Below the pieces are notes generated by a model. It was not told the DNA's origin. It saw only the letters and a program-made list of their open reading frames with translations, and made no database searches. A DNA stretch of 64,000 nt from an uncultured Bacteroidota bacterium. GTDB lineage: Bacteria > Bacteroidota > Bacteroidia > 2-12-FULL-35-15. A program made the translations under genes and the position numbers. The stretch lies in assembly GCA_903926385.1 (NCBI GenBank), contig CAIYIS010000036.1, positions 62,001 through 126,000 on the forward strand, read 5' to 3'. Shown here in pieces: positions 14,297-21,351 of the stretch (position 1 is its first letter; each line of letters begins with the position of its first letter).

Positions 14297-14321
14297 AACC
14301 ACGATGCCTTTTTTCCTTTAA

Positions 14322-14357
14322 CTGTTTGTTGGTAAAAACACCAACAAAGGCCAAAGG
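14322..14357 (+). repeat. Left copy of an inverted repeat flanking the cytochrome c gene
   Basis: A 36-bp element is internally palindromic (TTTGTTGGT, short A-rich spacer, ACCAACAAA). The reverse complement occurs at 15348-15382 with one substitution and one single-base indel. The two copies bracket the multihaem cytochrome gene. Confidence 0.88.
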
Positions 14358-14415
14358 GAGATTACTATTCAAATTTTAAATTAATCTATGTTGAACTGAT
14401 AAATAATTTTTAATC

Positions 14416-15342
14416 ATGGAAAAGACACTGATTTTTATTGTTTCCTTACCCTTGTTTGCTGCGCTATGGATGAACGGAACAACGGATACACTGAGCGCAA
14501 CCGGTTATTCAACTACAGACACCATTGCTGTAACCACCCCCATGACCGGTGAAAACGTCTGTCTGAATTGTCACGACAAAATAGTGGGAAAGAAAAACAA
14601 ACATAAGCCCTTAGAAAATAACTTATGCGGTGATTGTCATAATACTGAAATCATTGACCACTCGGAGGCAAAAACCGGAACACTCAAAGAAGTGCCGGAG
14701 TTATGCTTTTCGTGTCATGCAGAAAGTAAAGAACTGATTTCTTCCTCCCCTTTTGTTCATAATGCCGTACAGTTAAAAAAACTGTGTGTCAACTGCCATT
14801 CACCTCATTCGTCTGATAACAAAAAGTTATTGCTGGCATCCCGAAAAGAGCTTTGTTTGAGTTGTCATAACAAGTCCATGAAGGCAGATAAAACACCAGC
14901 CATCAATTTTGAGAAATTAATGGAGAGCAGGACCCTGCATCCTCCGTTCGAAGGGTGTGAAAAAACATGTCATAATCCGCATGCAGGAACCGGCAGGCTG
15001 ATGTTTAATACTCCTTTTGCTGTAGATAATTATATGAAAGTAAGCCCCGACTCGTTTGCGCTTTGCTGGGAATGCCATGGCAGTGATATGATTGAAAAGC
15101 CAAAGTCAAAGGGGGCCACCAGTTTCCGTAACGGAGAAGATAACCTGCACTGGCTGCATGTAAGCGGAGAAAAAGGAAAAAGCTGTTTGATGTGTCACAG
15201 TCCGCATGCTACCGACAACCTGCATCTCATCAGAACTACGGTGAAATTCGGAAGCTGGAATTTTAATATGAATTATAAAGCTACCGAAACCGGAGGGTCG
15301 TGCCTTCCGAGTTGTCATACCGAAAAAACATACACCAGATAG
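14416..15342 (+). CDS. Nine-haem cytochrome c (doubled CXXCH family)
   Basis: A periplasmic or surface electron-transfer protein of 308 residues. After an N-terminal signal (about 1-25) there are seven CXXCH haem sites (CLNCH, CGDCH, CFSCH, CVNCH, CLSCH, CWECH, CLMCH) and two CXXXCH sites (CEKTCH, CLPSCH), nine in total. The HxPH-type spacing between sites (CHSPHS, CHNPHA, CHSPHA) is that of the doubled-CXXCH group. Such proteins pass electrons between quinol oxidases and terminal reductases; the partner is not encoded here. The gene stands alone between an inverted-repeat pair and a terminator. The CXXXCH sites could be non-standard haem sites or unoccupied. Confidence 0.9.
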   Translation: MEKTLIFIVSLPLFAALWMNGTTDTLSATGYSTTDTIAVTTPMTGENVCLNCHDKIVGKKNKHKPLENNLCGDCHNTEIIDHSEAKTGTLKEVPELCFSCHAESKELISSSPFVHNAVQLKKLCVNCHSPHSSDNKKLLLASRKELCLSCHNKSMKADKTPAINFEKLMESRTLHPPFEGCEKTCHNPHAGTGRLMFNTPFAVDNYMKVSPDSFALCWECHGSDMIEKPKSKGATSFRNGEDNLHWLHVSGEKGKSCLMCHSPHATDNLHLIRTTVKFGSWNFNMNYKATETGGSCLPSCHTEKTYTR

Positions 15343-15347
15343 CGTAT

Positions 15348-15382
15348 CCTTTGCCTTTGTTGGTGTTTTCACCAACAAACAG
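15348..15382 (-). repeat. Right copy of an inverted repeat flanking the cytochrome c gene
   Basis: This is the inverted partner of 14322-14357 and begins six bases after the cytochrome stop codon. Its core is TTTGTTGGTGTTTTC followed by ACCAACAAA, itself a hairpin with 9-bp arms. A half copy (TTGTTGGTGTTTTT) is seen again at 15551-15564. Confidence 0.88.
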
Positions 15383-15390
15383 AACATCTA

Positions 15391-15425
15391 AAAAAGCCCC
15401 GAATATTTCTGAACGGGGCTTTTTG
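15391..15425. terminator. Bidirectional rho-independent terminator
   Basis: A stem of AAAAAGCCCCG with CGGGGCTTTTT and a 12-base loop has a T-run on both strands. It can end the cytochrome transcript on the plus strand and the small ORF at 15427-15609 on the minus strand. Confidence 0.88.
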
Positions 15426-15426
15426 A

Positions 15427-15609
15427 TTATATCCCTTTTGGGATTACGAAATAGGACGACCTCCAAATGGGTCGCTCCAAACTCCTCCTCCCTCCGATAT
15501 TGTCGGCCGATACTTTTCCTACCATATCTCCCGCAAATACTCCAAGTCTATTGTTGGTGTTTTTTTCGCTCGAAAAGTGGTTTTTGAATAATAATCCTAA
15601 CGAAATCAT
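15427..15609 (-). CDS. Possible 60-residue small protein
   Basis: No family was recognised. The frame starts with an ATG preceded by a very AT-rich leader, reads 60 residues without cysteine, and ends two bases before the bidirectional terminator, so gene-like signals sit at both ends. It contains a basic, aromatic C-terminal part (RPIWRSSYFVIPKG). It does not overlap any other likely gene. A chance ORF of this size is quite possible; conservation in relatives would decide. Confidence 0.35.
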   Translation of the reverse strand: MISLGLLFKNHFSSEKNTNNRLGVFAGDMVGKVSADNIGGRRSLERPIWRSSYFVIPKGI

Positions 15610-15795
15610 ATTTATTTATTAAATGTTAATTCTTGTTAGTTCTTGGCTTGCAATCTGCCTATCGCAAAAGTTTCCGGTATATGGTTACCTAAAAATCGGC
15701 TTATCGCAAAAGTTTGAGATGCCATCTAAAATTGGCAGGCACACCTCCCAAAAATTTCCACACTATATAATATAGGTAGTTTGTAAGGAGTTTTT
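15610..15795. repeat. Non-coding gap with a 14-bp direct repeat spaced 42 bp
   Basis: The gap between the small ORF and the rnc stop has no convincing ORF. The 14-mer TATCGCAAAAGTTT occurs at 15660-15673 and 15702-15715, a start-to-start distance of exactly 42 bp. The sequence between does not align as a 21-bp unit, so this is only suggestive of the 21-bp arrays found elsewhere. Confidence 0.6.
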
Positions 15796-20127: not shown

Positions 20128-21351
20128 ATGGAACGTATAAAAGTTATAGCCTTTACTCACAAAACAACCGATTTAAACAACATCGGAAAATTGCATATTG
20201 GAGATGATGAGTTGAAAAGCCGTTTGGAATATTTGAAATTACAAGCTGGTTTGGATGAACTACTTTATCTGTCCACTTGCAACCGTGTAGAATTTATGAT
20301 GGTGAACAACACACCCGTTACACCTGAATTTCTTCACACCTTTTTTACAGCATTCGATACCACATGGACAGCTTCAGATGTAGAATGGGCCATTAATAAC
20401 ACCAATGTATATGAAGGCGAAAAATCATTCCGTCACTTATTTAATGTAGCTTCTTCGTTAGACTCGTTAGTAGTTGGCGAAAGAGAAATCATCACTCAAG
20501 TGCGTAATTCATACGATAAATGTTATGCACTAGGAATTACAGGAGATTTGATTCGTTTAGCTGTAAAAAGAACCATAGAAGTTGCCAAAGACGTTTACAC
20601 CAATACCAATATTGCTAAAAACCCTGTTTCAGTGGTATCTTTAGCATACCGCGAACTGCTTGACTTAAATGTTCAGCCGGATGCTCGTTTTATTATTATC
20701 GGTTCAGGTGTTACTAATACCACCATGGCGAAATATTTGAAGAAAAATAAATTCTCCAACTTTACCGTATTTAACAGAACATTGGCTAATGCAGAAACAT
20801 TGGCAACTGAACTAAACGGAACTGCTTATCCCCTTTCTGAACTTAAAAACTACAAAAAAGGATTCGATATCATTGTTACCTGCACAGGTGCTTCAGAAAG
20901 TGTTATTACTCCTGAATTATACAAAAGCCTTGTAGGCGATGATACTTCTAAAAAAATTGTTATCGACTTAGCTATTCCAAACGATTTGGATGCTGAAATT
21001 CTTAGCCAGTTCGATGTTAAATTTATTGCCATCGAAAACCTACAAGCAGTAGCAAAAGAAAATTTACTAGCTCGCGAACAAGAATTGGAAGCTTGCCATG
21101 CTATCATCGAAAGAAACATGGATGAGTTTAAACAAATCTTAAAAACTCGTAAAGTGGAATTAGCCATGAGCGAAGTGCCTAAAAAAGTAAAAGAAATCCG
21201 TACTACCGCCAGCGAAGTTTTTGCAAAAGAACTTTCGCAATTAGATATCCAGTCGAAAGAAATATTGGATAAAATAATGGTGTATATGGAAAAGAAATTT
21301 ATCAGTGTGCCAATGAAAATGGCAAAAGAAATAATGCAGGAGAATGCCTGA
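20128..21351 (+). CDS. hemA: Glutamyl-tRNA reductase
   Basis: Reduces glutamyl-tRNA to glutamate-1-semialdehyde, the first committed step of C5-pathway haem synthesis. The catalytic cysteine is Cys51 in LSTCNRVEF. The tRNA-binding domain follows (VVGEREIITQVRNSY), then a Rossmann NADPH domain (FIIIGSGVTNTTMA) and a C-terminal dimerisation helix. At 407 residues it is close to the family norm. It leads the hemA-hemCD-hemB run. A glutamate-semialdehyde aminotransferase (hemL) is not in the window. Confidence 0.96.
   Translation: MERIKVIAFTHKTTDLNNIGKLHIGDDELKSRLEYLKLQAGLDELLYLSTCNRVEFMMVNNTPVTPEFLHTFFTAFDTTWTASDVEWAINNTNVYEGEKSFRHLFNVASSLDSLVVGEREIITQVRNSYDKCYALGITGDLIRLAVKRTIEVAKDVYTNTNIAKNPVSVVSLAYRELLDLNVQPDARFIIIGSGVTNTTMAKYLKKNKFSNFTVFNRTLANAETLATELNGTAYPLSELKNYKKGFDIIVTCTGASESVITPELYKSLVGDDTSKKIVIDLAIPNDLDAEILSQFDVKFIAIENLQAVAKENLLAREQELEACHAIIERNMDEFKQILKTRKVELAMSEVPKKVKEIRTTASEVFAKELSQLDIQSKEILDKIMVYMEKKFISVPMKMAKEIMQENA

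Follow-up and report, generated by a model that had tools for sequence, protein, structure and literature searches.

The window, by which we mean the whole stretch of 64,000 nucleotides analysed here, covers C36:62001-126000 of the 4.27-Mb genome of an uncultured Bacteroidota bacterium (G000, 85 contigs). In it a gene for a multihaem c-type cytochrome lies between two inverted copies of a short palindrome, with the following features.

14303..14324, + strand: GATGCC...CTG stretch before the left hairpin, delimited by a by-eye comparison with five doublets
14325..14348, - strand: left hairpin, a probable REP of the hpB subtype; TTTGTTGGTAAAAACACCAACAAA on the + strand, 9-bp stem, 6-nt loop
14349..14351, - strand: GCC foot of the left REP (GGC on the + strand)
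14416..15342, + strand: multihaem c-type cytochrome, 308 aa, seven CXXCH and two CX3CH sites; displaced paralogue, doubtful as cargo
15353..15355, + strand: GCC foot of the right REP
15356..15379, + strand: right hairpin, a probable REP of the hpB subtype; GCC-TTTGTTGGTGTTTTCACCAACAAA-CAG, 10-bp stem, 4-nt loop
15391..15424, + strand: terminator-like inverted repeat AAAAAGCCCCG-12 nt-CGGGGCTTTTT, directly past the right REP
15551..15563, + strand: half copy TTGTTGGTGTTTT, the third place in the window that matches exactly (0.42 expected with up to one mismatch)

The two feet and the terminator-like repeat were read directly from the sequence; the latter is missing from the terminator scan because its 12-nt loop exceeds the limit of that scan.

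The initial annotation had described a near-perfect inverted repeat around a nine-haem cytochrome gene, and this description holds. Positions 14322-14357 (36 nt) and 15348-15382 (35 nt) are reverse complements apart from one substitution and one 1-nt indel, each copy is itself a hairpin, with stems of 9 bp and 10 bp, the 308-aa ORF is the sole plausible gene between them, and the half copy placed near 15551, possibly a decayed REP (repetitive extragenic palindrome), is indeed there. The nine haem sites can also be counted, although two of them are of the unusual CX3CH form and only the remaining seven are CXXCH. The 24-nt palindromes are inverted relative to each other and lie 1,031 bp apart, start to start, flanked by CTG...GGC on the left and GCC...CAG on the right, so that on the - strand the left hairpin reads GCC-TTTGTTGGTGTTTTTACCAACAAA-CAG. 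Extended as ungapped arms (14308-14354 and 15350-15396) they are 83% complementary, and the palindrome TTTGTTGGT-N0-25-ACCAACAAA has two matches in the window as opposed to none in 100 dinucleotide shuffles. Folded as DNA, the right hairpin reaches -9.6 kcal/mol (z -4.4). The left hairpin is situated 67 nt ahead of the cytochrome start codon and the right one 13 nt past the stop codon. Farther downstream, the intergenic region between the cytochrome gene and rnc contains a 22-nt direct repeat (91%) at 15652-15673 and 15694-15715.

The window copies belong to a genome-wide family. A dyad with a fixed core and free middle pairs, TTTGNNGGTG-N2-14-CACCNNCAAA, occurs at 26 sites in the genome, the reversed control pattern at none; the commonest type, hpA, is TTTGCAGGTG...CACCTGCAAA, and the type found in the window, hpB (TTTGTTGGTG...CACCAACAAA), is rarer. 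A covariance model built from 18 copies, both window copies included, recovers at least 47 copies with E no higher than 0.1, the scoring having covered 150 of the 3,664 candidates. The window copies, being among its training sequences, match it at C36:76319-76355 (left, 49.1 bits, E 1.5e-9) and C36:77349-77385 (right, 55.9 bits). Nearly all of the copies inspected (28 of 30) lie outside ORFs of at least 120 aa. Among the 18 chosen copies, which came from a stem-biased search, stem pairing is 97.8% compared with 92.0% after shuffling, and covariation is 0.187 compared with 0.082, with none of 500 shuffles as high and two pairs changed on both sides; as most copies were found with eight of the ten stem pairs fixed, the two free pairs carry this test. 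Loop length varies from 4 to 7 nt across the family, and together with the compensatory stem changes this indicates that what is constrained is a hairpin and not an operator in double-stranded form. Most copies, once oriented, read GCC-hairpin-C, the foot often being (GAT)GCC; the canonical 5' GTAG/GGAG tetranucleotide is not found in the family, which has GCC or (GAT)GCC in its place. As expected of REPs, these are many interspersed, mostly extragenic palindromes whose hairpin pairing is conserved, the latter judged on the 18 selected copies. Rfam searches with 18 loci returned no relevant family, the matches being one true tRNA and scores under the gathering thresholds of their families.

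Some copies are joined as doublets. In three pairs the spacing is 61-62 bp, and in all three the GCC feet point outward; C20 carries two further doublets (L220, 365/426 and 1956/2018) with a 280-aa ORF between them. Compared by eye, the five consist of a first hairpin, usually hpA, a linker of ~35 nt that ends in CTG in four of the five, and a second hairpin followed by GGC in most. The C1 doublet folds strongly as single-stranded DNA (z -5.2). Two inverted REPs with a short spacer make up a REPIN, and this is the arrangement of the doublets. The window pair is not itself one REPIN, as its members are 1,031 bp apart and face the opposite way: their GCC feet point inward, to the cytochrome, whereas those of the doublets and of the inverted RAYT loci point outward. 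Each window copy resembles hairpin 2 of a doublet without its partner. GATGCC stands at 14303-14308, ahead of the left hairpin, and the stretch 14303..14324 may be what is left of a doublet's outer half and linker after deletion of its first hairpin.

A candidate partner for these hairpins is encoded elsewhere in the genome, which contains Y1_Tnp genes. In relatives from the same genus, a protein of 177 aa that has the motifs NHIH and YIHNNP, referred to here as the RAYT (REP-associated tyrosine transposase), is bracketed by or adjoins hairpins. At G023:C165 the gene lies between hairpins at 21206 and 21863, and RAYT genes with hairpins are also found at G020:C189, G020:C33, G004:C433, G005:C23 and G006:C46 and at C34 and C1 of the genome studied. 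In six of the seven genomes with positions inspected (G000, G004, G005, G006, G020 and G023), hairpins lie within 100 bp of the RAYT; the exception is G019, where the listed dyad is ~2.5 kb away, and the count leaves out G032 and G034. The gene is flanked by its REPs, as expected of a RAYT or TnpA-REP. Three of the proteins match NCBIfam NF047646 (REP_Tyr_transpos) with E of 3.6e-22, 2e-22 and 6.5e-23 and 78.8, 79.6 and 81.2 bits, so that one of the three passes the cut-off of 80; all three fall below the Pfam Y1_Tnp cut-off, and the NCBIfam IS200 model gives 15-17 bits against a cut-off of 55. NHIH and YIH-NP are invariant across seven proteins. When one RAYT was compared with PDB sequences, the sole match was E. 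coli TnpA-REP (4ER8, E 0.18). The 30 best Foldseek matches to an AlphaFold model are all Y1/IS200-type transposases, 4ER8 included, and count as supporting evidence only because the model is poor (pLDDT 50.7).

The initial annotation had stated that no transposase is present. This is correct for the window as scanned for the Y1_Tnp and RAYT families, yet bases 1-132 of the same contig, ~76 kb away, are the 3' end of a RAYT gene. The hpA-linked RAYT gene appears in pieces at contig ends (C1:1-411, C34:35437-35847, C5:1-132 and C36:1-132, the last being the contig of the window), which suggests that the assembly broke at two or more nearly identical copies. A second Y1_Tnp gene (C81) lies between 47-nt inverted repeats (L018:157-203 and 828-874, 89% complementary) with a canonical GTAG start, and is predicted to form a separate GTAG-type REP/RAYT locus. 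Near the C1 RAYT locus (L019, ~570-900) there is an array of short alternating repeats on ATAACCAACGTTCCATTGC / ATAACCATGGTTCCATTGC. A long low-complexity repeat ORF of the MKTFQFD type stands right beside the RAYT locus of G020:C33 (L070 / L130), and a different repeat ORF was seen near a hairpin in L102.

Close RAYT homologues (E<1e-60, a line drawn after seeing the matches, in a visible gap of the list) occur in nine of the 36 genus genomes. Dyads were found in all nine of these (26, 13, 10, 2, 1, 17, 25, 32 and 23 sites) and in five of the 27 others (2, 1, 7, 3 and 1), a co-occurrence with a Fisher p of 2.1e-5, uncorrected for shared descent. G025 and G031, in which the RAYT is more distant or broken, have zero dyads. 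Order-level sampling gave the same 36 genomes. When a class-wide sample of 198 genomes was searched with a stricter pattern, seven matched, three of them among the 191 outside the genus; the free positions of one of these matches (G090) do not pair, and in G202, from another family of the class, the order hairpin-RAYT-hairpin is seen again.

The whole resembles the REP/REPIN and TnpA-REP (RAYT) systems of E. coli and Pseudomonas in its short intergenic multi-copy palindromes, its inverted doublets and the palindromes that bracket a Y1 HUH transposase gene, and differs from them in its foot (GCC, not GTAG/GGAG), in a copy number in the tens and in AT-rich loops. IS200/IS605 elements likewise combine a Y1 transposase with recognition of subterminal hairpins, a recognition that is predicted here, but no whole IS unit is present. 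The label MITE-like, given to the pair in the initial annotation, survives in the sense that the repeats are small, non-autonomous and linked to a transposase gene located elsewhere, and fails for a cassette around the cytochrome; the terminal inverted repeats of a DDE element, as in MITEs, were not seen. To our knowledge, target-site duplications are not expected for REPs. In the same phylum, TnpA-REP subclass 2.6 (RAYT group 5) shares the NHIH and YIHNNP motifs, and the accessible text of PMC6006769 describes these Bacteroidetes genes as flanked by atypical structures without GT[AG]G that have copies elsewhere in the genome, as is the case here. The missing foot therefore excludes canonical GTAG REPs only. 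Differences from the tabulated subclass, as far as that text gives them, are WE in place of WQ in the W motif and a HUH-to-Y spacing of ~74 compared with a median of 82 (PMC6006769). Compared by description only, the window hairpin family fits the accessible account of subclass 2.6 (PMC6006769). On Bacteroidetes REPs, the accessible portions of the open-access literature yielded relevant text only in PMC6006769 and in one line of PMC3733652.

We conclude that the window palindromes are very probably solo REPs of a family tied to a RAYT/TnpA-REP with a Y1 HUH fold, the gene for which lies elsewhere in the genome. The family is a new member of the known REP/RAYT kind of repeat, and this domesticated transposase appears to have spread it. 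By analogy with E. coli TnpA-REP, as portrayed in the accessible text of PMC6006769, the RAYT would bind the GCC-footed hairpin in single-stranded DNA and would copy the doublet, or move it, to places between genes. On this view each window copy would be an insertion of its own, partly deleted, and the two would flank a solo gene. We think that they are selfish or domesticated REP insertions, with a possible passive effect on the ends of the cytochrome mRNA.

Other copies of the family carry what looks like a promoter. The motif CAAANNTA (TAnnTTTG on the opposite strand, the Bacteroidota -7 element) lies within 70 nt on the tail side of 22 of 47 copies, compared with 3.2 expected from mononucleotide shuffles, and on the GCC side of two of the 47. 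With genes taken as simple ORF calls and repeated copies sharing descent, 33 of 45 genes on the GCC side have their start towards the repeat (p 0.0025), and no bias is seen on the tail side (18 of 37); this orientation is more frequent at copies with the motif (17 of 21) than at those without it (16 of 24), a difference that is not significant (Fisher p 0.33). A tail like CCGAACCCGCTTAAATTC...ACAAATATA was noticed on many copies, its promoter-like motif pointing across the hairpin to the start of a gene, examples in the genome studied being C41:15683, C52:27078, C59:143949 and C60:14466 (loci L189-L218 and L237-L253). By eye, many genes downstream of such copies have signal-peptide-like N-termini. 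The conserved promoter-like tail is absent from both window copies. It is conceivable, if doubtful, that the RAYT spreads a mobile promoter (TAnnTTTG) which, together with its leader hairpin, rewires genes; in that case the window pair would be promoterless members and the displaced cytochrome one gene touched.

Selection on the hairpins as RNA, for stability or attenuation of the cytochrome transcript through its leader and 3' end, is an unlikely alternative to solo REPs. The position of the right hairpin just past the stop codon would suit it, as would the bias of family copies to precede gene starts on their GCC side and, in the one accessible line, the hypothesis that REPs stabilize mRNA (PMC3733652). 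However, neither hairpin is followed by a T-run, a separate terminator-like repeat lies past the right hairpin, and no cytochrome homologue has kept the hairpins.

The cytochrome itself has homologues in eight of the 36 genus genomes, counting the genome studied, which has two copies; the second (C74:6130-7053) is 62% identical to the window protein. All seven homologues with upstream sequence, C74 included, directly follow a long ORF that is absent at the window locus. This ORF resembles an outer-membrane barrel; since Pfam gave no family for the two upstream long ORFs tested, "barrel" is our own reading. None of the eight other cytochrome loci has a full hairpin beside the gene when two substitutions are allowed, and a weak match in L122 does not pair. 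Judged by this context, the window gene is a displaced paralogue of an operon gene, out of its operon, and could conceivably have moved as shared cargo. Among 14 rnc loci, it adjoins rnc in this genome alone. The outcome that our predecessors would have taken as refuting their reading, a common genome-wide hairpin, randomly placed, in a segment fixed in all relatives, is seen for the hairpin, which is genome-wide (at least 47 sites), and not for the segment, which the 13 other rnc loci lack. No empty insertion site was found in those 13 loci or by blastn against 29 rnc loci, where similarity outside the rnc coding region is limited to 29-39 bp stretches around 14380-14418.

These observations bear on the mobilised cassette first suggested, in which the inverted pair would be the ends of a composite unit that brought the cytochrome, with the RAYT acting in trans. 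The displaced gene, parted from the barrel-like ORF that precedes the seven homologues, and the rnc neighbourhood peculiar to this genome speak for it, as does the proximity of two rare hpB copies: two of seven within ~1 kb has P ~0.011 under random placement, for a subset picked after seeing the data. For the family as a whole, two of 41 independent sites (counted after merging doublets and clusters) fall within 1,040 bp in 33% of random placements (P ~0.33), and a similar inward-facing pair surrounds another ORF at G023:C54. The pair is inside-out relative to the doublets and RAYT loci, and a RAYT-mobilised cytochrome cassette is therefore not supported. With at least 47 sites in the genome, no full copy beside the eight other cytochrome genes, no empty site in a relative among the rnc loci searched, and a paralogue divergence of 38% that suggests a different age from the near-perfect hairpins unless the window copy came from elsewhere, the cassette is quite improbable, and the placement of hairpins around this one cytochrome looks largely coincidental. 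That one DNA-binding regulator controls the cytochrome from both palindromes as paired operators, also proposed at first, is scarcely credible despite their dyad symmetry and their positions before the start codon and after the stop, given the compensatory stem changes, the variable arm spacing with loops of 4-7 nt, and the copies beside RAYT genes and many unrelated genes.

With the two palindromes read as solo REPs, what looked like a gene cassette becomes part of a REP/RAYT system from an uncultured genus of Bacteroidota, one whose feet are non-canonical and whose transposase partner is defined. Such a family offers a way to test how hairpins are read by atypical RAYTs, and its promoter-bearing copies, if real, would be REPs that act as movable regulatory parts.
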